A DNA stretch of 64,000 nucleotides from positions 2,599,940-2,663,939 of the forward strand of contig OY282444.1 in the NCBI GenBank assembly GCA_958296125.1, given 5' to 3'. Every line of letters starts with the position of its first letter. Positions within the stretch are counted from its first letter, which is position 1. The DNA comes from an uncultured Poribacteria bacterium. GTDB taxonomy: Bacteria; Poribacteria; WGA-4E; PCPOR2b. The notes beneath the pieces are model-generated. The model ran no database searches. It had not been told where the DNA came from and was given only the letters and a program-made list of their open reading frames with translations. Positions 24,993 to 45,631 of the stretch are shown here, one piece after another. Made by a program: the position numbers and the translations under genes.

Positions 24993-27900
24993 GTTTCGGT
25001 TCCATACTGGTTCGATTAAAAGTATGTATAGTGGATCGGATGTTACAACCAAGGCAGCGTTTCAATTCCACACTGGTTCGATTAAAAGGAGAATCGCGAC
25101 GAGCTGGACAAGCCAAACGAAAATGTTTCAATTCCACACTGGTTCGATTAAAAGAGGGGATAGGGGGTTCGCTTCCAAGACAGTATGCAGGTTTCAATTC
25201 CACACTGGTTCGATTAAAAGGGAGACGAGGAGTACATCTCCGAATCCACCTGCGAGTTTCAATTCCATACTGGTTCGATTAAAAGAAGAGTTGAAACCGT
25301 TCATCAACAAAAACGGTTGGGAGTTTCAATTCCACACTGGTTCGATTAAAAGTAAGCAGACGGCCGACGCTGGTGTGTATGAGCCCTAGTTTCAATTCCA
25401 TACTGGTTCGATTAAAAGCAAGGTCCGGACTCCGGAATGGTGTAGCCGCGAAGTGTTTCAATTCCACACTGGTTCGATTAAAAGGGTTGAACACATTAAG
25501 GTTCTCACGATCCGGATGGTGTTTCAATTCCACACTGGTTCGATTAAAAGGGAAACTGAAGAAACCAAACGGACTTGGACAATCACGTTTCAATTCCACA
25601 CTGGTTCGATTAAAAGCGGATGGATTGAAGATGACGGCATCAATCAATCATAAGTTTCAATTCCACACTGGTTCGATTAAAAGAGATACAATGGACATGA
25701 TGAACGCGATGTATATCATGTTTCAATTCCACACTGGTTCGATTAAAAGCAGACATAATGTCGGTAGAGTTTATCTTACCAGAGAAGTTTCAATTCCACA
25801 CTGGTTCGATTAAAAGCCGACAGATTAGAGAAACTGACAGGAGATGATAAAACGTTTCAATTCCACACTGGTTCGATTAAAAGACTGTGGACGGAGTGCC
25901 TCTGCGATCGGTGTTACGCGTTTCAATTCCACACTGGTTCGATTAAAAGGTATAAATTCTGCGATGAATTTCCAACATCAATCATGTTTCAATTCCACAC
26001 TGGTTCGATTAAAAGTTGACCAATACGGTACAATACAATGCGACAGGACGAGAGTTTCAATTCCACACTGGTTCGATTAAAAGCCGATCAACCCAGACGC
26101 AACGATAGAGGAGACTAAGTTTCAATTCCACACTGGTTCGATTAAAAGTTTCACGCGCGTGGGGATACGTCGCTGATACTAAATTGTTTCAATTCCACAC
26201 TGGTTCGATTAAAAGGATTGAGCGGGAAGCAACGATCGCTCGAATTTACAAGTTTCAATTCCACACTGGTTCGATTAAAAGTTAGAGATTCAGAAATACA
26301 ATATCAAGTCGACCTTGTTTCAATTCCACACTGGTTCGATTAAAAGAAAAATGTGAGGGTCAGGAGACTCAGGTCTACACACTGTTTCAATTCCACACTG
26401 GTTCGATTAAAAGCAAGGTGGCCGAAATTGATGTGGATATCCACATCGTGTTTCAATTCCACACTGGTTCGATTAAAAGGTATAAGCGAGGCATTGGAAA
26501 CGCTTCAATAGCCATGTTTCAATTCCACACTGGTTCGATTAAAAGCCCGGAAGAAGCAGCTAATGAGATAGTAAGTCTCATGTTTCAATTCCACACTGGT
26601 TCGATTAAAAGGATCGCCTACGGGTCTGAAGTTCACATTGATGTGACTGCGTTTCAATTCCACACTGGTTCGATTAAAAGGAGCCGCCGGAGTAATAATC
26701 GAAACGCTCCCCGCCCCCGTTTCAATTCCACACTGGTTCGATTAAAAGCTGCCCAGACGCCCGATTCCGAGGGCAGGGTTGTAAGTTTCAATTCCACACT
26801 GGTTCGATTAAAAGTAATACCAGCAATAATCGTAACCATCTACGCTATTTCGTTTCAATTCCACACTGGTTCGATTAAAAGATGTCCTAAGTGATGCTCA
26901 TCTGTTAGCTACGGGTAGTTTCAATTCCACACTGGTTCGATTAAAAGAGATCGGCACCCACTAAAAAAGCCCCTCTGTTTCAGTTTCAATTCCACACTGG
27001 TTCGATTAAAAGTTCAAGAAACCGCCTCCCGTCCATCACGAGTCCCTAGTTTCAATTCCACACTGGTTCGATTAAAAGAAGAAGTGCAGGAGTGTTGCGC
27101 TTATATCAGACCACGTTTCAATTCCACACTGGTTCGATTAAAAGGCGGGGATGGACGATGATAAAATTGCCTCGCGAGTTGCGTTTCAATTCCACACTGG
27201 TTCGATTAAAAGCCGTGAGCTCATCGAAGTACCAATTTCAGAGTATCAGTTTCAATTCCACACTGGTTCGATTAAAAGGCATATGATCAAGCGCCCGACA
27301 AGAGCGTCCAGATTAGTTTCAATTCCACACTGGTTCGATTAAAAGACGACTAAACGAAAGGGAAGAGCTCGGCACGGAGCTTCGTTTCAATTCCACACTG
27401 GTTCGATTAAAAGGAGCGTCCTCCGCTGTTGCCGTTTTCATAATCTCATGTTTCAATTCCACACTGGTTCGATTAAAAGCGGGGCTGCCGACATGCAACC
27501 CCCAGAACTCGTCGGTTTCAATTCCACACTGGTTCGATTAAAAGGCAAGGTTCACCAGATCCACCCGTCCCGTCCGAATGGTTTCAATTCCACACTGGTT
27601 CGATTAAAAGTGTTTGTTTGATTGAATACAACGAAAGGAGAAAACAGTTTCAATTCCACACTGGTTCGATTAAAAGGATGGAAAAGCTGGGGTTCGAGGA
27701 AGCCCACATCAGGTTTCAATTCCACACTGGTTCGATTAAAAGTCGATGCGGCATCGATCTAATAGAAGAGATTTAACCGTTTCAATTCCACACTGGTTCG
27801 ATTAAAAGAGATCAAAAGGTTGCAAGCCCAAAAGAAGCGCGCGGGTTTCAATTCCACACTGGTTCGATTAAAAGTCGGCACGGGCGTGGATATGCGGTTA

Positions 27901-29862
27901 GATCCTGTGTTTCAATTCCACACTGGTTCGATTAAAAGTGCGGCAGCAATCTCCATCGATGGACAGATTCACCCGTTTCAATTCCACACTGGTTCGATTA
28001 AAAGGAGAGCACCAGACGATGAAAGATGAATCATTTTCGTGTTTCAATTCCACACTGGTTCGATTAAAAGTCATGTCGATACTCATTAGAATCTCCTTAT
28101 TACATAAGTTTCAATTCCACACTGGTTCGATTAAAAGCGAGACGAGAGGGGATATGTAACTTCCTTTAAGTTGTTTCAATTCCACACTGGTTCGATTAAA
28201 AGTCGTTTGTTTGGGGATGGGGACGAGAAGATATCAAGTTTCAATTCCACACTGGTTCGATTAAAAGACCCACAGTGACCTACAGAAAAGCGAGCCCGAG
28301 CCCGGTTTCAATTCCACACTGGTTCGATTAAAAGATAACGTCATTTGGAGCGTACCGGTACGTAGAAATTAGTTTCAATTCCACACTGGTTCGATTAAAA
28401 GTTGGGGTTTCGTTAAAACGTCGATTGACGTTAGCACGTTTCAATTCCACACTGGTTCGATTAAAAGAATGCGAATTCTAATAACAGGTGATAAGGGGTT
28501 TGTGTTTCAATTCCACACTGGTTCGATTAAAAGGCGGCGGAAATTAGGGCAGTTTACACCTACGTCCGGTTTCAATTCCACACTGGTTCGATTAAAAGTC
28601 GGGTTGCTAGCAGCGCAGCGACAACAGGAATCTGAGTTTCAATTCCACACTGGTTCGATTAAAAGTAATATCTGAAGATGCCGATTTTATTACAGTCCAA
28701 GGTTTCAATTCCACACTGGTTCGATTAAAAGAGGATTAACAATGACGAAACAACAACACCCCCAAGAGTTTCAATTCCACACTGGTTCGATTAAAAGTGA
28801 TTCACCCCTTAGTGAAAAATTAGCTTCACCAACGTTTCAATTCCACACTGGTTCGATTAAAAGTTGCTAACAACGCAAGCAAGGAGATGAAGATGAAAGG
28901 TTTCAATTCCACACTGGTTCGATTAAAAGCTGGATCGAGTATGTAAACCACATAACCATAGCTATGTTTCAATTCCACACTGGTTCGATTAAAAGGTAAT
29001 GCAGACGGATAACCAGACAAGAGGTCAGATAAGTTTCAATTCCACACTGGTTCGATTAAAAGTCGGTTGTATATCGGCAATTCGTATCAGACATACATGT
29101 TTCAATTCCACACTGGTTCGATTAAAAGGAAAAACGTTTACAAACATCTTCTAATCCGAACGAAGTTTCAATTCCACACTGGTTCGATTAAAAGTGAGGT
29201 CATCGCCTCACCATCAGGGGACGCAAGGTTTGTTTCAATTCCACACTGGTTCGATTAAAAGAAGCGTGCCAAGGAAACAATCAAAGCCTTCTCCCCATGT
29301 TTCAATTCCACACTGGTTCGATTAAAAGGCAAACCCGTCGTACCCAGAACCACATTCAGTTCAGTTTCAATTCCACACTGGTTCGATTAAAAGGCCTCAA
29401 ACATCACGAAAACTAAATGGGAATCCAATGTTTCAATTCCACACTGGTTCGATTAAAAGGTCCTAAACTCGGCAGTTATAACGAGTTACGGAATGTATGT
29501 TTCAATTCCACACTGGTTCGATTAAAAGACAGTTGCGATCGGTGGACGACTTACGAACTCTATCGTTTCAATTCCACACTGGTTCGATTAAAAGTTAAAT
29601 TTCATGCACTTTATTCCATATCCCAAACCGGTTTCAATTCCACACTGGTTCGATTAAAAGGCTGATGGAAAACCCCTATCAGAGAGGTGGGAGACCATGT
29701 TTCAATTCCACACTGGTTCGATTAAAAGCAGTAAGATTAGAAAAAGGTCGCTTCCGTATTTATTCGTTTCAATTCCACACTGGTTCGATTAAAAGCCCCC
29801 ACTGCATCGCCCGGGACGTACGTCGAAAGTTCGTTTCAATTCCACACTGGTTCGATTAAAAG
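24993..29862 (-). CRISPR. CRISPR array, 74 repeats and 73 spacers
   Basis: A 30-base repeat recurs 74 times. On the plus strand it begins GTTTCAATTCC, continues ACACTGG and ends TTCGATTAAAAG. On the minus strand it ends ATTGAAAC, the typical 8-base 5' handle of type I-B and III crRNAs, so the array is read on the minus strand like the cas genes. Spacers are 34-39 bases, mostly 36. Nearly all repeats are identical. The terminal one at 24993-25022 has three changes, and those at 25256 and 25389 share its C-to-T change. The degenerate end is therefore leader-distal and new spacers enter at 29862. No exact match of a spacer inside the window was noticed by eye. Confidence 0.99.
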
Positions 29863-30116
29863 CCCGAAAAATCAATAAAAATATTATACCAAACCCGCAC
29901 TATTTCTGCAAGGGGAAAACTGTCTTCAGCTTCAAAAGTCGTCAACGTCTGGTTGTGCAAAATTGACGGGGAGTTGACGACATAGCGTGGTTACGTTTCA
30001 AATCCATAATAGTAGGGCAAAAAAGTAACCTTATGGGCTCAGAATTTGCCTCAGAAATTGAGGTTGACGACTCACCATCCGTGCAAAAACGCCTTCAATC
30101 CGTTGTCGCAGTGCCG
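29863..30116 (-). promoter_or_regulatory. CRISPR leader with promoter and inverted repeat
   Basis: The AT-rich leader lies between cas2 and the first repeat. On the minus strand TTGCAG (29911-29906) and TATAAT (29888-29883) are 17 bases apart; transcription would start near 29876, about 14 bases before the first repeat. A perfect 9-bp inverted repeat, GTCGTCAAC (29938-29946) and GTTGACGAC (29973-29981), is followed by a third copy at 30063-30071. A repeat-like relic, GTTTCAAATCCATAATAG, is at 29995-30012 (14 of 18 matches to the repeat). Confidence 0.8.
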
Positions 30117-30380
30117 TCATAAGAGATTCGTTACCGGATTTTTTTCGATGCCGATCACCTGCTTGTCCATCCACTTTTCATGGCGCATTTGGTAGATGAG
30201 CACTGAATCTTTGCTGTCGTCAACGATTGTCAAAAGCCCTGATTTGACTCTCGCGAGTTGAGCCTTTGTCAACGCGCCTTCAAAGACGGAGTTTTGTACC
30301 CAGTTGAGGTGTTGACGTAAGTATTTGCAGACTTTCGCTACCCGTTTCACGTCAATGTCGTAAACGATAATAACATACAT
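30117..30380 (-). CDS. cas2: CRISPR-associated endoribonuclease/adaptation protein Cas2
   Basis: An 87-residue protein starting MYVIIVYDID, the canonical Cas2 beta-1 strand with the conserved Asp. HLNWVQNSVFEG and SVLIYQMRHEKW complete the ferredoxin-like fold. Cas2 dimers join Cas1 in spacer integration. The start at 30380 matches family alignments; an in-frame ATG 15 bases upstream is possible. It is separated from cas1 by an unusual 160-base gap containing repeats derived from the cas1 3' end. Confidence 0.95.
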   Translation of the reverse strand: MYVIIVYDIDVKRVAKVCKYLRQHLNWVQNSVFEGALTKAQLARVKSGLLTIVDDSKDSVLIYQMRHEKWMDKQVIGIEKNPVTNLL

Positions 30381-30411
30381 TATAATTTTCACCATATAAA
30401 CACAGGTTTCG

Positions 30412-30433: not shown

Positions 30434-30437
30434 TACG

Positions 30438-30551
30438 GTTTTACCACCAAGAAAACCCGGCTGCTTGTGGGAGAGGCATCCTTGCCTCGACCATTGGGAA
30501 AGGTTTTACCACCAAGAACACCCCTTATAACCTTTTGTCGTTTTACCACCA
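30438..30551 (-). repeat. Three copies of the cas1 3' terminus
   Basis: The dodecamer GTTTTACCACCA occurs at 30540-30551, where on the minus strand it is the TGG TGG TAA end of cas1, and again at 30503-30514 and 30438-30449. The last two share a longer context (GGTTTTACCACCAAGAA). This is non-coding duplication of the gene end inside the intergenic gap. Confidence 0.75.
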
Positions 30552-31538
30552 TGCCCGAAATGCCTGATAGGTTTCCATGCCTGTCAAATGCTTAATCAAC
30601 TTGTAGCATTCGAGGCGAATGAGGCGTTGGTAAGATACTTTTCGGTTCAATTTTCGATGGTCAATGGTCTGCTTGAGTTGGTCATCGAAGGCTTGGAGAA
30701 ACAGTCGTCTCCCCCTTTCGTTCAAATAGCAGCCCTCCATCTCGGTTTCAAAGTGTTTCGCCTCTTTGAGTTGGCCCCGGTTGAATAGCCGGAAAATCAC
30801 TCGATCAATAAGAATCGGTTTGAAGATTTCCGCCAGATCGAGGCTCAGAGAGAATCGACGTTCTCCCGGTTCATGCAGGAAGCTAATCGTCGGATTCAGT
30901 TGCGTTCGATAGATTTCGGTTAGGCAGGCAGTATACATCAGCGAATTCCCGAACGAAATCGCGGCGTTGATGGGGTTATCGGGTGGTTGGCGGACGCGCT
31001 TCTCAAACGGGGTTTGTAGGTTGATGATGGCGTTGAAGGCGCGGTAGTAGGTTTCGCGGATATTCCCCTCATATCCCATCAGTTCATCCACCCGCTGCGC
31101 GTGCGCGATTTCAGTTTTTATCGCCTCAATGATGCTAAGTTGCTCGGAGCAATCGCTGTTACGATTGGCACGGTAACGCAGGTTTCGCAGGATATTCGCC
31201 ACCGCCGCCGAAACAAATTCGCGGGCAATCGGCAGCCGTTTCGACTTCCGTTCATAGTGCTGCACCTGCTTGACGGTAAGGAATCCAGAGTTTAGGTATT
31301 CTCGCGGATAGTAGGTGCCGGAATAGTAGCCGTAGTAGTTGAAGATGTGAATGGGCACCTGCTTTTGTGCCATGAAGTTGAGAATCCGTGTGTTGAGGTC
31401 CAGTTCGCCATAGAGGTAGAATGCGTCCACATCCTCGATCGGAATCGGCACACGCGACTGGTCCTCTTTTTCAAGATAGATGGTGTTATCCTTGCGGCGC
31501 AATCTACCCGCCTGGCTGATGTAGTAATTGCGAGACAT
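30543..31538 (-). CDS. cas1: CRISPR-associated endonuclease Cas1, type I-B
   Basis: The integrase of spacer acquisition, 331 residues. The N-terminal beta-sandwich (YYISQAGRLRRKDNTIYLE) is followed by the alpha-helical catalytic domain. The metal-binding residues lie in NSLMYTACLTEI, FLHEPGERRFSLSLDLAEIF (conserved His and Asp). The style (long AREFVSAAVANILRNLRYRA helix, cited by its ends) fits type I-B Cas1 proteins. The ATG at 31538 follows cas4 by 13 bases. It is the only cas1 in the window, so both interference modules depend on it. Confidence 0.96.
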   Translation of the reverse strand: MSRNYYISQAGRLRRKDNTIYLEKEDQSRVPIPIEDVDAFYLYGELDLNTRILNFMAQKQVPIHIFNYYGYYSGTYYPREYLNSGFLTVKQVQHYERKSKRLPIAREFVSAAVANILRNLRYRANRNSDCSEQLSIIEAIKTEIAHAQRVDELMGYEGNIRETYYRAFNAIINLQTPFEKRVRQPPDNPINAAISFGNSLMYTACLTEIYRTQLNPTISFLHEPGERRFSLSLDLAEIFKPILIDRVIFRLFNRGQLKEAKHFETEMEGCYLNERGRRLFLQAFDDQLKQTIDHRKLNRKVSYQRLIRLECYKLIKHLTGMETYQAFRAWW

Positions 31539-31551: not shown

Positions 31552-32061
31552 TTAGCTCCAACAGAGCTCTTGATAGCTACAAGACTTGCAGATCTTCATA
31601 TATTCGGCGTGGGGTGGTGCGGGTAACGCGGCAATCTCGATCACTTTTTCGATAGCGGTTTCCAATTCGCGTTCCCTTTCGGGAGTCAGTTCGACCTCGG
31701 TCGTCCGCCGTTGGCGTGGGTAGTTGATAACACCTTTGCGGTTGGATACCCCTTTCTGTTTGAGCAGATAGAGATAGTAGAGAATTTGCATTTCGTGCGC
31801 CTTCTCCATCGCGGGCCCGGACTTGACATCGTGCAGGATGCCGTCTTTGTCAACAAAGTCGATGCTGATGAGGTCGTCGATCGAGCGTTCCTTCCGCTTT
31901 TCGCGCCCGTAACTCTCCTCGTGTAGCAGTTTCCCCATGGAAACGAGGTCTGAGGTGTGTTCCATTTCAATGTGGTTCTGAAAGAACCAGAGCTGGCGTG
32001 GGCAGACGTAAAGGTAGTGGATCATTGTGCCGGTGATGCGGGGTTGGGTTAGGTTTTGCAT
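31552..32061 (-). CDS. cas4: CRISPR-associated exonuclease Cas4
   Basis: A 169-residue RecB-like nuclease with a [4Fe-4S] cluster that trims prespacers and selects PAM. The cluster cysteines are C20 (VCPRQLWF) and the C-terminal trio C158, C161 and C167 (CKSCSYQELC). The nuclease core shows GKLLHEESYGREKRK, SIDFVDKDGILHDVKSG and EMQILYYLYLLKQKG, with D, E and K residues in the expected order. It sits between cas3 and cas1, as is typical of type I-B. Confidence 0.94.
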   Translation of the reverse strand: MQNLTQPRITGTMIHYLYVCPRQLWFFQNHIEMEHTSDLVSMGKLLHEESYGREKRKERSIDDLISIDFVDKDGILHDVKSGPAMEKAHEMQILYYLYLLKQKGVSNRKGVINYPRQRRTTEVELTPERERELETAIEKVIEIAALPAPPHAEYMKICKSCSYQELCWS

Positions 32062-32120: not shown

Positions 32121-34370
32121 TTACAGGATGTTCGTGCTCTGTTCATCTACGAGCAGCCCGAGTGTTTCATCATAGGTAACTTTTACGAACCACTGACCTA
32201 AGCGTTCATTTTCATAGAGTTGCCCATCTCGGTGCAGTCGGACAAATTGGCTATAACTAATTTGGGCGACGTAAGCTCGGGCTTCATAATACTGGCGTGC
32301 GGTAACTTCCGCTAAGAAATCCTCTTCGTAGACGGCCGGAACAACTTCAACGCTCTTGAAGAGTTGGTTAAATTCTTTGCGGTTTGATGCATCTTCAATG
32401 AAAGGGACGACGCTTTGTAAATGCCGTTCAAAGGCGCGTCTTGCGTTATTAAACTTGTCCTGTTCTTTTTCATCGTAGCCGTGACAATAGACTTCATCGA
32501 TTAGGCTCTGAATTTTCGATTCGTACAGGACATCAATAGGCGCGAGGGCGCGTAAAGTTCGTCGAATCTTGGCACTGGAATAGATGAAGTGATCGCTTTC
32601 ACCACCCTCACGGCAGATGCAGACATCGCAGAGGCCTTTTTCGCGTTTTCGGTTGATTCGTCCGAAGCGTTGGATAAGGGCATCTATTGGTGCCGGTTCT
32701 GAAAAGAGGCAGTCAAAATCAATGTCAAGTGAAACCTCAACTGCCTGTGTGCCAACGAGTAAATCTGCGTCGTCAAGTCCCTTTTCAATTCGCTCGCGGT
32801 CGCGGAGAATAAATCGGCTGTGAAGCAGTTTGGGATTTTCCGCGACATATTGCAATTCCTTAAACACGGTCTGTGTTTGGCGAACGGTATTGCAAACAAC
32901 TAACACCCGTTGCTCCTGCGCTAGTTGTTCCTCAATCAACGAAATTGCATCGTGAATGTTTCCATCAAGCAATCGAATTCGGTGCCGAGTGAATTGGTCC
33001 CGCTCGGTGGCTGGCATTTCAACGTGTGACATCTCACCGAGGACTTGGTCAAACATCTGCTTGAGAAACTGCGGCATTGTGGCAGTCATAATGCAGAATT
33101 TGGCATCATAATCGTAGTGTAGGCGTTCCAGCATTGTCAGGATCAGCGCGGTCATGTGCGGGTCATAGGCGTGGATTTCGTCAAAGATAAAGAGCCCTTT
33201 GGACATCTCTGCCTTCTGCATCTCAAAACCGCGGATACCGAAAAAGGCTTTCAGGAGTTGAAAGGGAGTCAACACCTTGTAGGGACGACAAATTTTCCGG
33301 GTCAGATCTTGTTCCCTCCGGGCCAATGCGGCGGCATCTTGAGGTGCGTAATCCTTGTCAACGAGTACTTGATACACAAAGTAGGTAGCTTTGCCGTGCA
33401 GCACACCGATTTTCTCATCGGAGACCAGCTCTGTTAGCCGCTTATACATTGCATTAATACTGGCGGTATAGGGTAAAACGTAAAAGACCCGATTCCCCAG
33501 GGTTTCCATTTGATTGTTAGCTGACCAGAGGAGGGCAGCCTCCGTTTTTCCGGATCCGGTAGGGGCTGAGAGCATCAGCTGACCTGTGATTTTTCCAGAC
33601 GTTTCTTGAAAGCGTTCCCATCCGCGAAAGTGCCTACCCTGCCCTTTTGCCCTTTCTTCAACGAATTGAGATAACCGGTTTTCCATGTTTCCAAGAGCGG
33701 TGGGGATTTCGTTTTTTCCGGCGGATGCAAGATGGTCACAGGCAATCGTACACCCGCGGAGAAGCATTCCGTAGGTGCCGTGCAAGGGGGTTAATTCGTT
33801 GTCCTCAAAATTGTTCCAATAGGACAGCAGAAAATCGCGATAGCTATTCATGAGTTTCTCTACTGAGGTTACAGGTGTCCAAAGGCATTCCTCAGTGGGG
33901 CACCAGTGAGATACTTGTTCCTGAATCGCCATCAAAGCTTCCCAATTCGGTTCTAGCTCTGCAATTCGCTCTTTCCATGTTTGGAAGCCGGGGTTACTTT
34001 CAGGCCAGCATGGATATTTATCCACAAGCGTCTCAATATCCTTGTGATGCGTTAAAATTGAGAGTGCAACTGCCTGTTTTGCCGCCAACGGGAGTTGGAG
34101 ACTGACTACGAACCCTGCGGACAAGATTTCGTGACGATAGTTCCACCGGGTACTGGTGGTGAGTTGGCGTTGGAAACCAACAGCGGCTTTTCCGAAATCG
34201 TGAAGGGCGACGGTGTAGAAGAGGTGTTCAAAGAAATCAGGCTCTTTCGCAACCTCGGCTAAAAACGGCATCCGCTCCCGGAGGCTATCATATACCGCGA
34301 GGCAATTTTCTGTATGTTCGCGAAGTGTTTCCGTCGGGTCGCTTTTGGCGAGTAAAGGGGGCATGTTCAC
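32121..34370 (-). CDS. cas3: CRISPR-associated helicase-nuclease Cas3
   Basis: A 749-residue single-chain Cas3 with an N-terminal HD nuclease (VALHDFGKA, H57 and D58, plus downstream LTHHKD) and a superfamily 2 helicase. The Walker A motif is APTGSGKTEAALLW, the Walker B is FDEIHAYD (DEIH in place of DEAH), motif III is TATMP and motif VI is QRFGRINRK. Cas3 unwinds and degrades target DNA after recruitment by the type I-B Cascade. The start overlaps the cas5 stop by four bases, showing translational coupling. Confidence 0.96.
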   Translation of the reverse strand: MNMPPLLAKSDPTETLREHTENCLAVYDSLRERMPFLAEVAKEPDFFEHLFYTVALHDFGKAAVGFQRQLTTSTRWNYRHEILSAGFVVSLQLPLAAKQAVALSILTHHKDIETLVDKYPCWPESNPGFQTWKERIAELEPNWEALMAIQEQVSHWCPTEECLWTPVTSVEKLMNSYRDFLLSYWNNFEDNELTPLHGTYGMLLRGCTIACDHLASAGKNEIPTALGNMENRLSQFVEERAKGQGRHFRGWERFQETSGKITGQLMLSAPTGSGKTEAALLWSANNQMETLGNRVFYVLPYTASINAMYKRLTELVSDEKIGVLHGKATYFVYQVLVDKDYAPQDAAALARREQDLTRKICRPYKVLTPFQLLKAFFGIRGFEMQKAEMSKGLFIFDEIHAYDPHMTALILTMLERLHYDYDAKFCIMTATMPQFLKQMFDQVLGEMSHVEMPATERDQFTRHRIRLLDGNIHDAISLIEEQLAQEQRVLVVCNTVRQTQTVFKELQYVAENPKLLHSRFILRDRERIEKGLDDADLLVGTQAVEVSLDIDFDCLFSEPAPIDALIQRFGRINRKREKGLCDVCICREGGESDHFIYSSAKIRRTLRALAPIDVLYESKIQSLIDEVYCHGYDEKEQDKFNNARRAFERHLQSVVPFIEDASNRKEFNQLFKSVEVVPAVYEEDFLAEVTARQYYEARAYVAQISYSQFVRLHRDGQLYENERLGQWFVKVTYDETLGLLVDEQSTNIL

Positions 34371-36149: not shown

Positions 36150-37559
36150 TTAATCCTCCTTGGGGAGATCGGTTTCAGACAAGTCATCGTCAACCGATGC
36201 AGTATCTTCATCAAAATCAACCAAACCTTGCTCTTGTAGCCATCCGTGGAGTTTCTCGTAGATACGAAAGAGCAACAGGTCGCGAGTCTCACTCCAAAAC
36301 GTAACGTTATTACTTGCGGGAAAGAGATGCTCAACATAATCCTCCAACGAGAAGAGAGGTTCTTGAGCACCTTGCGATATTCTTTCTCGAATGACGAACC
36401 GGAGCACATTACGACATTCGCGGTAACTTTTCGCACGTTCTAATTGCGTAAGTCGCCGATCTCGTCCGGATACACGGATACTATCCGCAATGAAATCACC
36501 AACATCTTTGATTTTATTAAGTCGTGCTTGATCCATATTTCTAACCTCCTTTAAGTACAGGGAAAGCAATTCCCAGTTTCCGCGCGGTTTTTGGGCGGGC
36601 CGGTTTAAAAAGTACCGGAGGATTGAGCGGTCTTCCAACAGGTTCTCATACACTCGGTTGGTGCGGTTCTTGTAATCCTCCTCGGATTTAACTTTAGCCC
36701 AGTTGACTTTTGAGTAACCGCTTCGGACAATTTGTTGCCATGCAATTTTAAACTCGCTTTGATGGACGATGCGTAAAAATCGGAAGACGGGGGCTGGCAT
36801 GTAAAAGATTTCAAGTTCAGGTCCCTGTCCGAAGTTTGTGAAGCAGTAGACCTGTAGGGAGATATCTTCATCCCATCGCATCTCCCCAAACTCAACCATT
36901 TCCCGAGTCATGTAGAACAAGCCGTTGCGTGGATTTGCATAACCGGGGTTAAAACATCCAGAAATTTCCAGTCGAATCCGTTGAAGCTGAATATCTTCGA
37001 GGCATTTTCGAGTCCAAGCTCTCAGGGCGTTCCACGAATTGGAGTGAAGCATGAGAAACCGTCCACCAGTTGCAACAAGAGCCAAGGGCGATAGTTGGAT
37101 GGCAAAAGCGCAGGCGGAACAGTAGCCAACTCCCTCAGCAAAGGTTGGAAAGAAGTTGCGCAACTTCCCAGAGCCAGTTAGTGGTACGCCCGTTCTCGAA
37201 AGCCATATGTTTGCATCGCGTCTGCCGCATCCTATACAATCCCCACTTTGACTCAGGTTCTCCGCATTAGCAATATGGTTAAGGAGTGCTTCTTTAAAGC
37301 CTGCAGCGCGGTCGCCTTTTTTAGAAGGATGTGTTAACGGATGGTTGGTTGTGAAAATCGAAACCCAATTCTTCCAACCGTGTGCTTCAGGTTTCTTTTT
37401 GTCAAACGGTCGCAGGATAGGAACAACTTCCGTAACAACCTTCTCAAGGTCAGTGGTAGTAATCTGTTCCGGTTGCACACCACGCCCTAACCATTCACAG
37501 ATTCCACAGATACCCGTATCAACAAACGGGTTGCCCATCAGTTTTTCATAGATTGCCAT
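36150..37559 (-). CDS. cas8b: Cascade large subunit Cas8b, Cst1 (CXXC-CXXC) type
   Basis: A 469-residue protein. The pairs CIGCGRRDANIWLSRTG and GYCSACAFAIQLSPLAL are the CXXC...CXXC signature of Cst1, the large subunit of Tneap-type I-B systems, thought to recognise the PAM. The ATG at 37559 has GGAGGG six bases upstream, so the longer in-frame extension is rejected. An LYLKEVRN region and an acidic C-terminus follow. It lies between cas6 and cas7. Confidence 0.88.
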   Translation of the reverse strand: MAIYEKLMGNPFVDTGICGICEWLGRGVQPEQITTTDLEKVVTEVVPILRPFDKKKPEAHGWKNWVSIFTTNHPLTHPSKKGDRAAGFKEALLNHIANAENLSQSGDCIGCGRRDANIWLSRTGVPLTGSGKLRNFFPTFAEGVGYCSACAFAIQLSPLALVATGGRFLMLHSNSWNALRAWTRKCLEDIQLQRIRLEISGCFNPGYANPRNGLFYMTREMVEFGEMRWDEDISLQVYCFTNFGQGPELEIFYMPAPVFRFLRIVHQSEFKIAWQQIVRSGYSKVNWAKVKSEEDYKNRTNRVYENLLEDRSILRYFLNRPAQKPRGNWELLSLYLKEVRNMDQARLNKIKDVGDFIADSIRVSGRDRRLTQLERAKSYRECRNVLRFVIRERISQGAQEPLFSLEDYVEHLFPASNNVTFWSETRDLLLFRIYEKLHGWLQEQGLVDFDEDTASVDDDLSETDLPKED

Positions 37560-37624
37560 CTTTATCCCTCCTGCTTTGAAACCTAAAATCATACAACTAT
37601 ACGAGTGTTAAGTCAACATAGATT

Positions 37625-38392
37625 TCATATATTCTTTCTTACAACCTCCACCATCCCAAACCCCATGCTATTTTTATCCCCGAATCCGCATGCGTAGCCG
37701 ACGTGGATTAACTCCGGGGCACCGATGACATGAAACGGAGAGAGGATGCCGCGAATTTTGGTGCCTTTGAAATCAACCAAGCGGGTCACACGTCCCCCTT
37801 TTTTGTCGATGTACGCCGGATCGAAGGTCATTGCAAACGATTGCTCTTGCGGCGGCTGTCGGTACACCGCTTCGTATTTCCGAATCAGGTTTTGTCGAAC
37901 TAACTCGGAGAACTGGGGGTCATCGGGGAGGCAGTAGTGTGTGTCAAGTTTATTGGCTCGCTCTCGCACAGTAGACATCGTAATCGGTGAGAGACACCGA
38001 AAGGTCATCTGTGGCCCGAAGCGGGGTTGGCGCAACACCTCGACATCCTGCACCCGCAACCTGTGATGTTCAATCTGTAGAATTCCGGTCTGCATTAGCG
38101 CGGCGGCGAAGTTTTCTAAAAATGGTTCCTGAGATGAGGAGACACACCATGTCAGCGGCGAACGGAAGTGAATCTGATCGCCTCGGATCTCCCGTTCCTT
38201 TGCCATTAGTTGAGAGAAGGTAAACAGTTTGAAACGCCGCTTCTCCTGTTCATAGCCGCCTTGGTGGAGGAAATGTGCATATTCGGGGTCGGATTCCTTG
38301 AGAAAACGATAGATGGCACCTGTGAGAAAGTAATTGTAGTTGATTGGTAGGCGGATGCCTGTGCCGGTGTCGCACGTAATTTTGATTCGCAT
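37625..38392 (-). CDS. cas6: CRISPR RNA processing endoribonuclease Cas6
   Basis: A 255-residue double-RAMP nuclease. The glycine-rich loop YACGFGDKNSMGFGMVEV near the C-terminus and the segment AHFLHQGGYEQEKRRFKLFTFS near the N-terminus (cited by its ends) are typical; H43 is a candidate catalytic histidine. Cas6 cuts repeats to leave the ATTGAAAC handle. It sits between the csm and cas8b modules and is the only processing enzyme seen, so it probably matures crRNAs for both type I-B and type III-A complexes. Confidence 0.93.
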   Translation of the reverse strand: MRIKITCDTGTGIRLPINYNYFLTGAIYRFLKESDPEYAHFLHQGGYEQEKRRFKLFTFSQLMAKEREIRGDQIHFRSPLTWCVSSSQEPFLENFAAALMQTGILQIEHHRLRVQDVEVLRQPRFGPQMTFRCLSPITMSTVRERANKLDTHYCLPDDPQFSELVRQNLIRKYEAVYRQPPQEQSFAMTFDPAYIDKKGGRVTRLVDFKGTKIRGILSPFHVIGAPELIHVGYACGFGDKNSMGFGMVEVVRKNI

Positions 38393-38424: not shown

Positions 38425-39558
38425 TCAGGATGATGTTATTTGCACCCAACCAAGCGGGGACTTCGGTCTCTGGCGGTCATACAGAACCCGACGGGTCTTC
38501 GGAAATTCATCATCATAGTAATCCGTCCGCGAGCGGCTTCTGCCCAGACGGTAGTGCCGTCGCAACTTCATCATCAAATCATCATCGCCTCCGGTTGCCA
38601 GTTGAGTGACCGTTTTCGCAAGATATCCCGCCCCCCAGCCGATTGGCAGGATGAACCCACCGCTCGGTAGATTTTCGATCCGGTTCGAGAGTGATTCATA
38701 GAAATTTGCAAGCTCAGGCAACCTATAATAATTGTAAAATTCTGATTCTTCATCGGCAAGCCCTTTCGCCACGAAGTTGCACGCCTCGGCGAGTTCCTCG
38801 CAGACTACCCGCTCCTGCCGATCGCTATATCCAAGCTCGCGTTTTTCACGCGGGCGGAAGAGGGACTTGTCAATTTTGATTGAGAAATCCAACGTCTGCT
38901 CGGCGCGAATCTGCTCGACAAATGTCTTGTACTCACGATTGCCTTCCCGTTTTTGGACGAGTTTGCCCTCTCGATTGAGTGTAACCGTCCACGCGACACC
39001 CATATCCAAGGCTTCGATCGGAATCGGCGCGGTATCGCTGACCTGCACGACTCGCATCAGATCGTGATTCGGATCTTTTCCAAGCACACGCCTTTCAATC
39101 GGTTGTCCCACCCAACTTCGATTCTGTTTTCGCTGTAGTTGCTCTTTCAAATAGTTGACTGAATACTTAAAGGCTTCTTGGGCTTCTGGATTATCATCAT
39201 CAATGAAACTCCACAGCAGTGCGGTGCGGATTGCGCCTTTGATGCTGCTGCCGGGGATCATCGGGCGACTGAAAGCATCTTTAATTGATTCGCGGATTTC
39301 AGTTTCCCGTGGGTCTTCGGGGCACGGGAGTATGTAAGACGCTGATGCCTGATTTGTCGGAAGGTATCTCCGCCACCCAAAGTCGCGTCGTCCCATCGCA
39401 ATGGTGAGGCGATTTAGTTCAGATTCAGGGATAGCTGCAAGTACCCTATCAAGGTCAACGCGATGCCATTGTCCATTGTCGTAGAAGCCGTCAATTTGGC
39501 TCAATGTTTCACCCGTGCCGATATGGACGGGTGTGATGGTTTTTAGTTGGTATTTCAC
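38425..39558 (-). CDS. csm5: Type III-A subunit Csm5
   Basis: A 377-residue RAMP protein of the Csm complex tip. It starts KYQLKTITPVHIGTGE, with the G-rich motif, followed by IPGSSIKGAIRTALLW as in Csm5 and related RAMPs. I chose a GTG at 39558 because GGGGGG lies just upstream and the homology begins there; the frame can be extended to 39642, but that part looks non-coding. A 210-base gap separates it from csm4, containing a CCTCCGCTCCGGAGG palindrome. Next comes cas6, 32 bases later. Confidence 0.88.
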   Translation of the reverse strand: MKYQLKTITPVHIGTGETLSQIDGFYDNGQWHRVDLDRVLAAIPESELNRLTIAMGRRDFGWRRYLPTNQASASYILPCPEDPRETEIRESIKDAFSRPMIPGSSIKGAIRTALLWSFIDDDNPEAQEAFKYSVNYLKEQLQRKQNRSWVGQPIERRVLGKDPNHDLMRVVQVSDTAPIPIEALDMGVAWTVTLNREGKLVQKREGNREYKTFVEQIRAEQTLDFSIKIDKSLFRPREKRELGYSDRQERVVCEELAEACNFVAKGLADEESEFYNYYRLPELANFYESLSNRIENLPSGGFILPIGWGAGYLAKTVTQLATGGDDDLMMKLRRHYRLGRSRSRTDYYDDEFPKTRRVLYDRQRPKSPLGWVQITSS

Positions 39559-39767
39559 AATTCCCCCCGATTGTATTGGTTGATTGAACTGATGCCTCCT
39601 ACACACTGCGCCCCTCCGGAGCGGAGGTTTCCGTCGCATCATTGGGTTAGGGACTGTTTAACCTGATGAAAACAAGACAGGACGGTGGATACTTCGCTTG
39701 TCTATCCATGTTTTCTGTGTAATCCGTTGAATTCGTGATTCAGACAATAATTATGCACACTCCTCAT

Positions 39768-40781
39768 TTATATCTTCAGGGGCCAAGCGTAGGCGTATCG
39801 CCAGACGGGGTGCGGACACGCATCCGGTGTCAGGTCAACGAGACGACCGACCTGTGTGCCCTTCCCACCCAACACGGAGCCTTCCCCGAACATCCAGACC
39901 TGCTGACGACGCAGGTGGCTCCCCTCAGCAGAACCGATCCAACCGGAGCGTTCCTCCAGCGTATAACCGACATCACCTTGAATGAGTCGGTTTAATTCAT
40001 CGGCATCCCGCGGACAGACCGGCGAGAGCGTGACGAACCGATCCGCCTCCGACTCTGATTCGAGTTGCTTTGAATCCTGATCTGATCGGGGGGTGGCAGG
40101 TTTGCTATCGAACTCAAAGGTGCCGTACCCCGCACTCCGCTCACCGCCAAGACCTGTATCACCGAGTACACGGAGGATTGTTTCAATTTGCGTTTGGGTC
40201 TCCTCTGTCCTGAATTTCGCATCGAACCACAACCCACAACCTTTGTGAAACCTAACAGCTTTCAAGTGCCAGATTTCCGATGCGGATGATTGACGATCCA
40301 GAGTCACGCGAGGTCTCTTGTCAGTCTCCCAAACGGCAGGTAGGCACTTGTCATCGCCGTGAATCCAGAGCTGTCCGTCGTTGATCAGATCTTTGTCCCT
40401 TATTAAATCAGCACGGTCAGAGGCAACCGACTCACTGTTGACAATTTGACGAAAACGCCTCTCGGAGAGGAAGCGAATCTTCTTGAGTTTTTTGCGGTCA
40501 TCGTCCGCATTAACGTTGAGATTGATCAACGGCTTGGGGAAGAATCTGCTATCGCCTGCAAAGGGAAAGGCAGAAGTCAACAGAAACGGTTCACCCGCTT
40601 CGTATTGTGCCAGAAAATCGGTGAGCGGCTCTTCCCCGTAAAACATCCGCCACGTCTGACAAATTGCTGAAAAGAGGGTGTCGGCGGGGATTAAGATTCC
40701 GGTTTCCTCCAATCCAACTCCGCGCCGCCCAAGATGGAGGGGTGATCGGAAGTTAAGATAGTAGGTGACATGTTTTGACAT
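39768..40781 (-). CDS. csm4: Type III-A subunit Csm4
   Basis: A 337-residue RAMP that binds the crRNA 5' handle and contacts Cas10. Typical family features are YLNFRSPLHLGRRGVGLEET, IPADTLFSAICQTWRMFYG, LTSAFPFAGDSRFFPKP and the glycine-rich loop GLGGERSAGYGTFEF. Spacing to csm3 is 11 bases. Nothing unusual was seen. Confidence 0.92.
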   Translation of the reverse strand: MSKHVTYYLNFRSPLHLGRRGVGLEETGILIPADTLFSAICQTWRMFYGEEPLTDFLAQYEAGEPFLLTSAFPFAGDSRFFPKPLINLNVNADDDRKKLKKIRFLSERRFRQIVNSESVASDRADLIRDKDLINDGQLWIHGDDKCLPAVWETDKRPRVTLDRQSSASEIWHLKAVRFHKGCGLWFDAKFRTEETQTQIETILRVLGDTGLGGERSAGYGTFEFDSKPATPRSDQDSKQLESESEADRFVTLSPVCPRDADELNRLIQGDVGYTLEERSGWIGSAEGSHLRRQQVWMFGEGSVLGGKGTQVGRLVDLTPDACPHPVWRYAYAWPLKI

Positions 40782-40792
40782 GAAGCCCCTCC

Positions 40793-41611
40793 CTACGCTT
40801 GCATCGCTGCTGAAATTTGGCTTTGATAATCCGCTTTCCGCAATGCCGAAACGCCATCCCCTTCGGCGAGCGTGGCAATCGGTACTGACTGCGGGTTTTC
40901 ATAATGCTTTCGGGATTTGAAGATTACCTTCAACTTACGGAAGGCAATTTTCCCGGAGCCGCGTGACCCGGAACCGCCGAGGTAGTCATCTTCGATCAGT
41001 TCCATGCCCATCAATACTGTGTCAAAAAGCGCGATTTCACTGTCAACGCTCCCCTCGGAACCGGTGTCGAGGGTGTAGAGGCTGTGGACCATCTCCAGCG
41101 GGCCGAAGGTTGCTTCTGCGGGCACACGCTCGTTTTGGCGTGGCGTTGCCGCCGAAGTGATGCGGTCAATTACGACCTCGGTTTTGACCTCCGTGTACAG
41201 CATATCAGTGTCAATCTCGTTAAAACGCTCCCTCGTCTCGGCGGTCAGAAGCGCGTCGCGGACAATCAGGCGCGTGGGCATCGTGTCTTCCATGTTACGG
41301 CTCGGAGCGATACCGAAAACTTGACAAACTGAACACTCCTTGTAGTCAGCCAACCTATTACACTCGTGGACGCGAACTTGCGGCCTATCCCGACGAAGGG
41401 GTTTATTTAGGTGCCGGTCTAACAGAGACCGCATCTTGCCGCGCAGCGATGAGCCGGGGATGTACGGCTCACGAGTGAGTGGGTTTCGGATGACGGGTTT
41501 ATCCACACCGCCGATGTCCAACTCGCCCGCGCTTCCACCGATGTGGAGTCCCGTCATCGCTTCGATTTCGCCTATGATAAAGATCTTGCCTTGAAGTTGA
41601 ATACTTGCCAT
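40793..41611 (-). CDS. csm3: Type III-A backbone subunit Csm3 (target RNA nuclease)
   Basis: A 272-residue RAMP that forms the Csm backbone and cuts target RNA every six bases. The motif ELDIGGVDKPVIRNP contains the catalytic-type aspartate (D37, equivalent to D33 of characterised Csm3), followed by YIPGSSLRGKMRSLLDRHL. CNRLADYKECSVCQVFG is the cysteine-containing loop typical of Csm3, and GGSGSRGSGKIAF is the C-terminal glycine-rich loop. RNA cleavage should therefore be active. Confidence 0.95.
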   Translation of the reverse strand: MASIQLQGKIFIIGEIEAMTGLHIGGSAGELDIGGVDKPVIRNPLTREPYIPGSSLRGKMRSLLDRHLNKPLRRDRPQVRVHECNRLADYKECSVCQVFGIAPSRNMEDTMPTRLIVRDALLTAETRERFNEIDTDMLYTEVKTEVVIDRITSAATPRQNERVPAEATFGPLEMVHSLYTLDTGSEGSVDSEIALFDTVLMGMELIEDDYLGGSGSRGSGKIAFRKLKVIFKSRKHYENPQSVPIATLAEGDGVSALRKADYQSQISAAMQA

Positions 41612-41636
41612 TTCTATTCTCCTTTAGTTACACCTA

Positions 41637-42056
41637 CTAATCCTTTCCTCCGGAAGCTTTGTGATAGGCTAAAATTGCCTCAAAGAAATCGACAAAACGA
41701 TTGAATTTCTTTGAATCGTCTCCCACAAGATCAATTGCCTGTGTCAGAACATCCTTCAGCGTATTGACCCCGCCGCCGTGTCGCTTTGCGGCGTATGCGA
41801 GTTTCGGCTTGAGCATCAAGAGTTTGTGTGTGTCAAGTTCGCCACCTTTCATCTGCATCTTCTTGACCGCACCGTAGATATTGCGAATCTGAGATGTCGT
41901 TAGTTTCTGATCCGCTAGTTGCTGCCCTCGCTGCTCTGCCTCTTTTACCAAAATTTCACCACCCTCAGTGATAATTCTAGCATCCAGATTGACTCTCGTA
42001 GAACCGCGATCATCTCTTCCCCGAGGACCGCGATTATCTCTGGAACGTTCTCTCAT
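41637..42056 (-). CDS. csm2: Type III-A small subunit Csm2
   Basis: A 139-residue, largely helical protein. Its N-terminus is basic and R/G/D-rich (RERSRDNRGPRGRDDRGS), followed by the Csm2 core LTTSQIRNIYGAVKKMQ and LLMLKPKLAYAAKRHGGG. The ATG at 42056 has GGGAGG six bases upstream; a longer frame upstream is rejected. The start overlaps the cas10 stop by 23 bases, so translation is coupled. Confidence 0.9.
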   Translation of the reverse strand: MRERSRDNRGPRGRDDRGSTRVNLDARIITEGGEILVKEAEQRGQQLADQKLTTSQIRNIYGAVKKMQMKGGELDTHKLLMLKPKLAYAAKRHGGGVNTLKDVLTQAIDLVGDDSKKFNRFVDFFEAILAYHKASGGKD

Positions 42057-44406
42057 TTTTATCCTCCCTTGTTTGTAAAGTTGTCCAACGTACAATGACG
42101 CGGAGAAATTGAAGGAGTTCACCTGCTTCACTGTGATTGCGAACCAACCCTTGACGCAGGTCATCAATCAGGTCGGTATGGTTTTTGTACATCTGCTTGG
42201 CACGGCCGAGATGATAAATGAGCCGCCACGCCCATTTGCGTTGCTTATGTTCATCACTTTCATAGAGATGGTAAATCTCGCTCAAGCGTGTGAGAAAGCT
42301 ACTTGACAACGGCTTTTCGCCACTGACTGCTTTCAACAGTCGCTTATGCCACCCATCAACTCGGTTGAAATCTTCCCAAGTCATCGCTCTTTGCAGGAAG
42401 CTAAGCGTGTCCTTCTCTTTCCGTAACGCTTTCGCGTTATCAAGCGCATCACCGGCATCGCTAGCCAACTGGTAGAGCGGGTATTTTTTATGCTCGATCG
42501 CGATGCCTCCCGAAAGTGTGACATGCTCGCCGCCGACAAATGCACGAAATTCGTCCCGAATCTGCCGGGCGATTTGGGGTGCGGCACTCCATCCACTGAC
42601 AAGGAATAGGTCATCGCCGCCTGCGTAGATTAACTCCAAAATTTCACGCGTGTGGGTGGCGTTATAATCGCGGCAGAGTTTCGGGATGTAGCCTTCAAAG
42701 AAGAGCCGCATCGATTCGCTCAACGTGGACATCCGCGAAATGGTCGCACTATCACCAAGCCCTTTCTCGAACAGCTGACCCAGATTGTCCACGTCCATCC
42801 GTAACACGCTAAGCCAGTTTGTCCCTTCCGATGCGTCGGCGAGTTGGTCGAAGTCCGCCACCGCTTCGCTGTCCGGTTTGCGTGGGATGACCTGTGGTAG
42901 AGGTCGGAAATCGTAACTCACGGGTAGATCGCCCCACCGGAAGTTACCGAGAGTTTCGTCAGAAAGGAAATCGGTCGAATTAAGTCGATAGACTGTCGCA
43001 CGGGTTGCGTCAGTGGGGGAGGGTGGCTTGGCTTCCGACGTATTGACGAGGTGAAATTCTAACCCAAAGCCGCGGATGATTTCATTCCAATCCGGTCTAT
43101 CGGAAATGGGTTGCTCAGGAATCTCAAAGGCGACAAGATGTTGGGCATCCCGTAATTGCCGCCCAAGTTCCGGGAATCCGTAGTTCTCTGTCTCCCGTTC
43201 ATCGCGGGGTGTGAAAAAAAGGTCAAACATCTTTTCCGAAGGTAACTCCCGCCACTTTGTCTGTTTCTGCCGCTCAATCTCCTCTGAAACGATTTTCCAT
43301 TTCTTGGAAAATTCGTCGAAATTGCTCGCTGTTACAGGGACACCCGCTAGAACGATCGAAAGTTCTTCCCGATGTGCCTGCCATAGTTTTTCGGCAATCT
43401 CGGCACGGAGCGCGTCGATCTCCTCCCTAGCCTTTCTATAGGGCAAAAGCAGGTAGAAATGACCGCCGCTTGCGAGTAGCAGGTTCGTTATCGGCAGGTC
43501 AAACCGCCGCAGGATCCACAACGCAATCGCTTCCGTCAACAGTTGCAGGTAGAATGACCGCCCGCGCAACTCCAGCGATGCCCCATCGGACTTAATCCGG
43601 TAGAGGAAATTCTGGAGTCCCGAAATATCGCCTTTGATCAAGGCGCATAACGGTCGTTCAGGAAACCGCTTGAGGTAGCCATTCAAATCATCAGGGGCAA
43701 TTTCCCGATGGACACACGCTGCGATTGCCGCCGTTGTGCGGAGGTGATCGTAGAGCGAAATATCGGGGACAGTCTGCTCGTGGCCTCCCTCCCAAGGGGT
43801 CGCGGAGGGCATACGGGCGGTGTACTTGTGCAGGAGCGCAACAAGCGTCTGATAGTCTGCGGACTGATAGCCGCGCTCGCCCGCTAATCGCTGCAGCTCT
43901 CGCGTGAATTCATCCCAGAGTTCCTCGTACCTGCTTGGGTCGGCAGATCCAGCTTCTGTTGGAAAAATGGTCTCGCGGCGGATGTTTAACGGATCGAGAT
44001 TATATCGCAATTCCGTTGTCGGCCGCGGTTTGTCGGGGGTTTGTAAACGCGACATAATCGAGACCAATGCGGCGTGGGAGGGTTTTTCCTGCTCACGCTG
44101 TTCGGCCTCGCGCTCTTTGGCGGAGAGTCGGTCTGCCAAAGTTACCTGCTTTTCAATCTCCTTTCTCTGTCTGGGGAAGTTATGGTGGTTTAGAATCGCA
44201 TCGCCCAAATCATCACCGCATGGGTAAAAGAAACCTCCCAAGTCCTCTGTTACAAACTCCCAACCGTGCCTTTCGTGAGGGCGGAAGGGCGGTGTTGCAA
44301 TCGTCCGCTGCCGAAATTTCCCGATGTCGTGGAGCAATGCGGCAAGTTGTAGCCGTTCAATGTCTTGAAACATGTGGGCACCTCTTGAGGTTTGAGATTT
44401 TGACAT
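42034..44406 (-). CDS. cas10: Cas10 (Csm1), HD nuclease and cyclic oligoadenylate synthase
   Basis: The 790-residue signature protein of type III. An N-terminal HD domain contains LLHDIGKF (H26, D27) and ILNHHNF. Palm 1 shows IKGDISGLQNFLY, Palm 2 shows LRMDVDNLG and YAGGDDLFLVSGW with GGDD at residues 596-599, the polymerase site for cyclic oligoadenylates. The DIII helical domain follows. The ATG at 44406 has GGGAGG eight bases upstream. The four-cysteine zinc finger usually found between the palms is missing. Both the ssDNase and the signalling activity look intact, and the two CARF proteins in the locus are the logical receivers. Confidence 0.96.
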   Translation of the reverse strand: MSKSQTSRGAHMFQDIERLQLAALLHDIGKFRQRTIATPPFRPHERHGWEFVTEDLGGFFYPCGDDLGDAILNHHNFPRQRKEIEKQVTLADRLSAKEREAEQREQEKPSHAALVSIMSRLQTPDKPRPTTELRYNLDPLNIRRETIFPTEAGSADPSRYEELWDEFTRELQRLAGERGYQSADYQTLVALLHKYTARMPSATPWEGGHEQTVPDISLYDHLRTTAAIAACVHREIAPDDLNGYLKRFPERPLCALIKGDISGLQNFLYRIKSDGASLELRGRSFYLQLLTEAIALWILRRFDLPITNLLLASGGHFYLLLPYRKAREEIDALRAEIAEKLWQAHREELSIVLAGVPVTASNFDEFSKKWKIVSEEIERQKQTKWRELPSEKMFDLFFTPRDERETENYGFPELGRQLRDAQHLVAFEIPEQPISDRPDWNEIIRGFGLEFHLVNTSEAKPPSPTDATRATVYRLNSTDFLSDETLGNFRWGDLPVSYDFRPLPQVIPRKPDSEAVADFDQLADASEGTNWLSVLRMDVDNLGQLFEKGLGDSATISRMSTLSESMRLFFEGYIPKLCRDYNATHTREILELIYAGGDDLFLVSGWSAAPQIARQIRDEFRAFVGGEHVTLSGGIAIEHKKYPLYQLASDAGDALDNAKALRKEKDTLSFLQRAMTWEDFNRVDGWHKRLLKAVSGEKPLSSSFLTRLSEIYHLYESDEHKQRKWAWRLIYHLGRAKQMYKNHTDLIDDLRQGLVRNHSEAGELLQFLRVIVRWTTLQTREDKNERTFQR

Positions 44407-44482
44407 AAAATATACCTCCCATTTTGAGCATGTTCAAGGATAACAACTCGGTTTTTATCTTAGCAACCCAGTTTTTATCACA

Positions 44483-45631
44483 TTAGTGTAACCGGAGGTG
44501 GATACGGTCTTTGGAAAGTGCTAACCCGTAGCAGGTCTCATCTCGATTTGACGAAGGATTCCATGACTGAATTTGACAGTGAGTAGACTGTGTTTCGGCC
44601 AGCCTCTCTCTAATTTTTCTATTGATATTGGATCGGGTTTGAGAGAAGCGGGCAATCGGATCGCTGTCCCAACCTTTTAACTTCTCTAGGCGGAAGTCGC
44701 GTGCGGAAATTTGAGAGACAATCTCTTTAAGCGCATCCGTTAGCAGCCCCTCCCGAATCTCAGAACGTGAAATGGAGTATCTGTCCTCAGTTTCCTCGTC
44801 CAGATGCTGCTGTGCAAAAAATAGATAGAGTGCGAGTTCAAGGGGGGTGAGCTTGATGGTGACTTCTCCAATTTCCAAGCAACAGGAGCATGTATTAACA
44901 ATGACAGGAGAGATTGCTTGCAACGCATTATACTCCCGTTGAGCAATCTCGATCAATTCCGTGTACCCGGCATCAGTATGTTCGTTGAGAAAAGGGATCT
45001 TCTCCCTAAGTAGTAACAGTGGGATTTCCGCAAGCTCAAGCCGAATCTCCTCCACAGGAATTGTACGTCCATCGCTCAAAACGACATCGGCACCGTTTGG
45101 CGGCGGATAGAAAAACTCCCGATTTTCAAGCGCAGGATTCACTAGAACATGGGAAAGGGAATCGCCCGGTCTGCCGTAAAATTGCATCGCCAGGCCGATA
45201 TAAAGCCCCATCGTTTTGCGCCCGCCTGCGATAGAGGCGTACAGACAAACATCGGGATTGGCTACCAGATTTCGCACGAATGCAAAGATTTGGTCTGCGA
45301 GGACTTCGTTGTCAATTACACTTGAGATATCTTTTAATGGCTGTCCATCTGCGTTTTTCAAGAGATGAATATTCGCCAGATCGAAGTGAATTGGCGGCAG
45401 ATTGTAGTCATCGCAAAGGGACTTTAGTCTCCCGTTATCTCCGAGAAGAGTCTCCTCCAAGGTCTCCTTGCCACGTAATGTAGTCAAGGCAAAAACTTCG
45501 GTGATTGGAACGGGTGGTGAAGCGAGGCACCAGTAGTAGTAGAGGGTTTCCGTGATGACTTGCGGGGCAAGTCCGACAACGCTAATGAGAACGTGCTTGG
45601 GAGTGGTTTGTCGATTGGGTGTTGTGCACAT
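44483..45631 (-). CDS. CARF-wHTH protein, NE0113 family
   Basis: A 382-residue protein at the head of the cas operon. The N-terminal CARF part starts LISVVGLAPQVITETLYYYW and has ASIAGGRKTMGLYIGLAMQFYG (start and core cited), matching the NE0113-type CRISPR-associated family. The C-terminal about 130 residues (LTPLELALYLFFA, then ARFSQTRSNINRKIRERL, then YGLALSKDRIHL) look like a winged helix-turn-helix. The reading is a ligand-controlled DNA-binding regulator that senses cyclic oligoadenylate and adjusts cas expression. GGGAGA precedes the ATG. No HEPN R-x(4-6)-H motif is present, so it is not a Csm6-type RNase. Confidence 0.82.
   Translation of the reverse strand: MCTTPNRQTTPKHVLISVVGLAPQVITETLYYYWCLASPPVPITEVFALTTLRGKETLEETLLGDNGRLKSLCDDYNLPPIHFDLANIHLLKNADGQPLKDISSVIDNEVLADQIFAFVRNLVANPDVCLYASIAGGRKTMGLYIGLAMQFYGRPGDSLSHVLVNPALENREFFYPPPNGADVVLSDGRTIPVEEIRLELAEIPLLLLREKIPFLNEHTDAGYTELIEIAQREYNALQAISPVIVNTCSCCLEIGEVTIKLTPLELALYLFFAQQHLDEETEDRYSISRSEIREGLLTDALKEIVSQISARDFRLEKLKGWDSDPIARFSQTRSNINRKIRERLAETQSTHCQIQSWNPSSNRDETCYGLALSKDRIHLRLH

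Follow-up and report, generated by a model that had tools for sequence, protein, structure and literature searches.

The genome of a sponge-associated member of the Poribacteria was found to encode two types of CRISPR effector, a type III-A (Csm) complex and a type I-B complex, in a single string of genes. With a probability that we place near 0.85, this string represents a III-A cassette set in front of an ordinary I-B operon, with one Cas6 and one array feeding both effectors. The locus lies within a 64,000-nucleotide stretch of the genome (the window), to whose first letter positions refer unless they are given in Mb or with a locus label.

An earlier note, made from the sequence of the window, had reported 14 genes on the same strand that carry complete Csm and I-B effectors together with one cas6 and one cas4-cas1-cas2 set, and profile searches have borne this out. 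Fourteen consecutive ORFs occupy positions 30117-45631, all on the minus strand and all intact, and each family call rests on a match to an NCBIfam or Pfam profile exceeding its curated cut-off. The first gene of the operon encodes a CARF protein of the NE0113 family (44483..45631; TIGR02584, PF09623; PADLOC CARF5). It is followed by cas10 (csm1; 42034..44406; TIGR02578), csm2 (41637..42167; TIGR01870, PF03750), csm3 (40793..41611; TIGR02582), csm4 (39768..40781; TIGR01903), and csm5 (38425..39642; TIGR01899). Next is cas6 (37625..38392; TIGR01877, PF01881), which encodes the single crRNA-processing endoribonuclease of the operon, and then the I-B genes cas8b1 (Cst1; 36150..37592; TIGR01908, PF09706), cas7 (Cst2/DevR; 35116..36147; TIGR02585), cas5 (Cas5t; 34367..35119; TIGR01895), and cas3 (HD nuclease and helicase; 32121..34370; TIGR01587/TIGR01596). 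The adaptation genes cas4 (31552..32061; TIGR00372, PF01930), cas1 (Cas1b; 30543..31538; TIGR03641), and cas2 (30117..30395; TIGR01573) complete the set. The real start of csm2 is probably downstream of the TTG, for example at the ATG at 42056.

The earlier note had conceded that a broken key subunit would count against it; none was found. Cas10 has both its HD (HDIGK) and GGDD palm motifs and Csm3 its invariant catalytic Asp within GGVDKP, which with Csm2, Csm4, and Csm5 makes up a type III-A effector. The I-B effector is of the Tneap/Cst kind, comprising Cas8b1/Cst1, Cas7/Cst2, Cas5t, Cas3, and Cas6, all above the NCBIfam cut-offs; the motifs HDFGK, GSGKT, DEIH, and QRFGR were found in Cas3, and FLHQGGY with a Gly-rich loop in Cas6. 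The gaps between csm5 and cas6 and between cas6 and cas8b1 are both 32 bp, and the remaining intergenic distances range from -134 to 147 bp. No terminator-like sites lie within the two gaps around cas6, and their total was below that in shuffled sequences; promoter-like matches were at chance level, and internal promoters are not claimed. We infer that the 14 genes are co-transcribed.

The 74-repeat array described in the earlier note was likewise recovered (24993..29862, minus strand). Its repeats, CTTTTAATCGAACCAGTGTGGAATTGAAAC, are exact in 71 of the 74 copies and separated by spacers of 34-39 nt, and a degenerate unit with three mismatches stands at the far 24993 end, distal to cas2. In the leader (29863..30116, minus strand), a TATAAT box with a TG ahead of it, approximately 20 nt upstream of the first repeat, would constitute the array promoter. 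The predicted crRNA handle is the 8-nt ATTGAAAC; it varies among relatives, the joined locus of one of them (G053) having ATCGAAAC. Searches with the whole array returned no protospacer from phages, from plasmids (the one weak match spanned repeats), or from 85 Poribacteria genomes (the short matches checked among those listed were arrays or single repeats), and 12 of the 73 spacers, combined two at a time into six exact patterns, gave no match in IMG/VR.

That only one array is present, as had also been claimed, holds for the window; genome-wide, there are two others with other repeats. The window repeat matches the genome (G000, a single contig of 5,156,246 bp) 74 times, always within the window array. 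Elsewhere, the genome carries two more I-B loci, each with its own cas1, cas6, and array, and a Cmr (III-B) locus. Locus A (3.66-3.67 Mb) encodes Cas2, a Cas4-Cas1 fusion, its own Cas6, a Cas3-like helicase, and PADLOC Cas7b and Cas8b; its array has 36 repeats ending GATTGAAAC and thus also ends in ATTGAAAC. The effectors of this locus (3.661-3.674 Mb; L013, L014) were missed by both NCBIfam and Pfam, and an assignment to type I-G, suggested by the Cas4-Cas1 fusion, was dropped for I-B given the PADLOC calls. Locus B (1.237-1.254 Mb) comprises cas6, a cas8b1-like gene, cas7, cas5, cas3, cas1, cas2, and cas4, with an array of about 60 repeats ending ACTGAAAG. Hence, the extra arrays do not pair exclusively with one module of the window, a finding that the earlier note had held would speak against it; each adjoins a complete I-B module of its own. 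None of the other Cas6 proteins of the genome matched that of the window at E<=1e-10. Locus D (0.709-0.719 Mb; L025, L026) is a III-B cluster of Cmr1, Cmr3-6, and a Cas10-like palm; neither cas6, cas1, nor an array was present in the 40 kb read, and the Cmr complex probably borrows crRNAs from elsewhere in the genome. This locus also encodes a CARF-HEPN protein and has a second CARF gene. A cas1 match at 4.88 Mb was rejected as noise (54 positions, 27.5 bits, an internal stop, and no array or cas genes nearby).

The wider context was provided by mapping all cas genes and repeats in 85 Poribacteria genomes, the source genome and 84 others; the relatives named here are Candidatus Poribacteria MAGs. 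Cas10 of the window type occurs in 21 of the 85 (two of the 21 being distant), Cas7 of the window kind in 26, and DNA matching the window array in 56. The ordinary I-B operon of the lineage has the order cas6-cas8b1-cas7-cas5-cas3-cas4-cas1-cas2-array (G079, G035, G052, G065:C79, G066:C125, G081 contig 1, G023); cas6 is its normal first gene, and the Csm cassette of the window immediately precedes it. A strict order within one operon, hinged on cas6, which the earlier note had singled out, was therefore overstated. The search of related genomes for this order that it recommended produced a single example, in the same genus (G021), where the order runs from the CARF gene through cas1, at which point the contig ends; the exact order is thus confined to one genus. 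Other Poribacteria present at least three further joined orders, and the Csm cassette is found between cas3 and cas4 (G028), between cas6 and cas8b1 (G053), after cas2, beside another kind of I-B module (G037, G038, G047), or alone with Cas6 and arrays (G080 and G081 contig 2). Within the genus of the window, G018 has a different Cas8 after cas6, where its contig ends. In another relative, G019, cas6 is broken. G020, of the same genus as the window and syntenic with it, retains near-full-length cas10 and csm genes, cas6, and arrays, but between cas6 and the arrays only a stub of cas4 is left; the I-B and adaptation genes were deleted from this locus. In a Cas10 tree, the genus of the window forms a clade separate from the other joined loci, and so I-B and Csm were probably joined more than once or repeatedly rearranged.

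The proposal that the same crRNAs enter both complexes had been argued partly from the handle, said to suit both effectors. The ATTGAAAC end was dropped as evidence of sharing since the locus A array has the same end and the handle does not discriminate. The comparison with the 84 other genomes is more informative. The window locus has one repeat type and one cas4-cas1-cas2 set, the two other cas1 loci of the genome being I-B modules with other repeats. Loci of relatives with the window repeat family and Cas6 include some with I-B only (G079, G035, G052, G023, G066:C125) and others where Csm stands without I-B (G080, G020, G081 contig 2). G065 has identical repeats in its Csm-side and I-B-side arrays, and the joined locus of G028 has 259 repeats whose sequence is exactly that of the window. 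In a Cas6 tree, sequences from I-B-only, Csm-only, and joined loci are intermixed. With this Cas6 and repeat family common to all three kinds of locus, such guides can evidently support either effector, and crRNA sharing in the window is thus the natural conclusion. Both window effectors probably read the same guides, which is the best reading of the locus and one strengthened by the comparison. The stronger claim of identical guide pools was not upheld; the pools of Csm and I-B may differ because the locus A array also yields the ATTGAAAC end.

That same end leaves room for the view that the modules are mere neighbors, Csm using mainly other guides, such as those of locus A, or both pools, while the window array feeds mainly I-B. 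Type III complexes do accept crRNAs that other systems have produced (PMC5576922), and the Csm genes stand at the 5' end of the operon, apart from the array. However, the locus A array has its own Cas6, Cas7b, Cas8b, and cas4-cas1, Csm has persisted in G020 after the loss of I-B with only the window Cas6 and repeat family, and Csm cassettes in other genera lie between arrays of this family, all of which makes this view improbable. Still less credence can be given to the idea that the operon is a recombination accident in which one half is a decaying passenger, with Csm or I-B being lost as in G020 and G019. The I-B deletion and the broken cas6 of these relatives, together with the restriction of the joined order to the lineage, are what such decay might leave, yet none of the 14 window genes is interrupted, the catalytic motifs are present, and in G021 the same 13 genes are retained, with proteins 60-92% identical, up to the point at which the contig ends.

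If the two effectors share guides as favored here, the leader would drive a single pre-crRNA, and the sole Cas6 of the operon would cut it to crRNAs bearing the ATTGAAAC handle. Part of these would be loaded into a Cas8b1-Cas7-Cas5 Cascade that destroys PAM-bearing DNA with Cas3, and the remainder would enter Cas10-Csm, probably after 3' trimming. Cas10-Csm is predicted to bind transcripts, to cut RNA and target DNA, and to make cyclic oligoadenylate (cOA), which would activate a CARF-RelE protein encoded across the array. As adaptation is by a Cas4-Cas1-Cas2 set of the I-B type, newly acquired spacers would come with a PAM and be usable by Cascade; those among them that match transcripts would serve Csm as well, and hence a PAM-mutant phage would remain detectable. 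Such a backup of I-B against PAM escapers is inferred by analogy, having been established in another system (PMC5576922).

The gene for the CARF-RelE protein (23653..24906, plus strand) is convergent with the array and lies just outside the 24993-45631 range. Its product, a predicted cOA-activated mRNA interferase resembling Cami1, contains both CARF and RelE domains; the PADLOC CARF7-RelE profile (427 bits) covers residues 38-412, and the alignment with PDB 8phb/8phj spans residues 85-303 only. Homologs occur directly after csm5 in G037 and G038 (L062, L063), and it is plausible that this gene encodes the effector of the type III arm. The first gene of the operon (44483-45631) encodes an N-terminal CARF fold and a C-terminal domain that, by alignment, is without a HEPN motif. 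The C-terminal half is predicted to form strands, three helices, and then a hairpin; it looks like a winged-helix DNA-binding domain, and the protein is thus a candidate cOA-responsive regulator of the joint operon. A same-genus relative has a cluster of type III effectors beyond its arrays (L051:14231-16999, minus strand), consisting of CARF-PDDEXK, CARF-HEPN, and a CARF-RelE remnant. A small ORF after csm5 in G047 (L058:9983-10372, plus strand; MILLLNSAVMPTEGVY...) recurs in several relatives and may resemble the DUF1874 ring nucleases.

Among known systems, genes for I-B, III-A, and III-B lie in one cluster in Thermotoga maritima, in agreement with the TM18xx names in the titles of Csm families. 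A Symbiobacterium sp. MAG (L178) has cas10-csm3-csm4-CARF-RelE-cas8b-cas7-cas5-cas3 on one strand; it belongs to a different phylum, its Cas10 is far diverged, and csm2, csm5, and cas6 were undetected with the profiles used. Seventy-one I-B/III genomes share repeats and acquisition machinery, with a PAM and coding-strand bias (category 3 of Vink et al., 2021; PMC8482600). Like these, the window combines DNA- and RNA-targeting effectors with one adaptation set, one repeat type, and a type III module lacking its own cas1-cas2; unlike them, it has both effectors, cas6, adaptation genes, and array uninterrupted in one string, and in an uncultured phylum. In Marinomonas mediterranea, a III-B system employs I-F crRNAs to act on phage that escape by PAM mutation (Silas et al., 2017; PMC5576922). 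The window Csm is similarly predicted to draw on type I guides and intercept PAM-escape mutants, with one repeat, one Cas6, and one locus, whereas the Marinomonas systems are separate and differ in repeats and processing. Also close are the other joined loci of the phylum (G028, G053, G054, G037, G038, G047, G018), which share with the window a homologous Csm cassette, Cas6, Cas4-Cas1-Cas2, the repeat family, and an adjoining I-B module, and differ in the position of the cassette (cas3|cas4, cas6|cas8b, or after cas2) or in having another I-B module (with a Cas8 like PADLOC PDLC01594). The window is accordingly a well-formed example, with unusually good comparative support, of an arrangement known from dozens of genomes, and not a new design. 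Its layout is among the cleanest natural tests of whether one guide pool can serve a DNA nuclease that requires a PAM as well as an RNA sensor that does not, for which the natural deletions within the phylum (Csm only, I-B only) are comparative controls.

Stand-alone Csm cassettes of relatives were found to be flanked by direct CRISPR repeats of the same family in operon orientation, on both sides in G018, G061, G065, G080, and G081 and on one or the visible side in G054, G062, and G066 (for example, L050:2967-3212 and L050:9600-9770; also L059, L061, L064, L057, and L105). As a rule, the repeats or mini-arrays ahead of cas10 are healthy and those behind the cassette are degenerate; when the repeat pattern was shuffled, an equally stringent search of the 593 kb examined found nothing. 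The distance from csm5 to the next repeats or type I gene is about 1.6-1.9 kb in G061, G065, G066, G080, G028, G047, and G053, suggesting that the extent of the cassette is fixed. The joined cassettes (window, G021, G028, G053, G037, G038, G047) have no border repeats, nor does that of G020, where I-B was lost; even with up to seven mismatches allowed, neither the window nor G021 showed repeat scars at either border of the Csm cassette. It is possible, if on balance doubtful, that the Poribacteria Csm is a mobile cassette that moves by CRISPR-repeat recombination and docks at several positions of I-B operons, the window being its scar-free docked state with one array for both effectors. If so, repeat homology would provide both the docking site and a guarantee of guide compatibility, and the bracketing pattern, if it holds, hints at how type III modules enter hosts whose guides they can already read. 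No report of repeat-bracketed Csm cassettes was found in the open-access literature; loss of the Marinomonas III-B operon through recombination between flanking arrays has been proposed (PMC5576922), and the exchange of CRISPR modules is well recognized (PMC4390879). Poribacteria also have another, diverged I-B module (L101:7586-9301, L050:198-2054), which uses the Cas6, adaptation genes, and repeat family seen in the window. Its Cas8 has no NCBIfam or Pfam match and a weak one to PADLOC Cas8b; in L050, it follows cas6 at the joint occupied by cas8b1 in the window.
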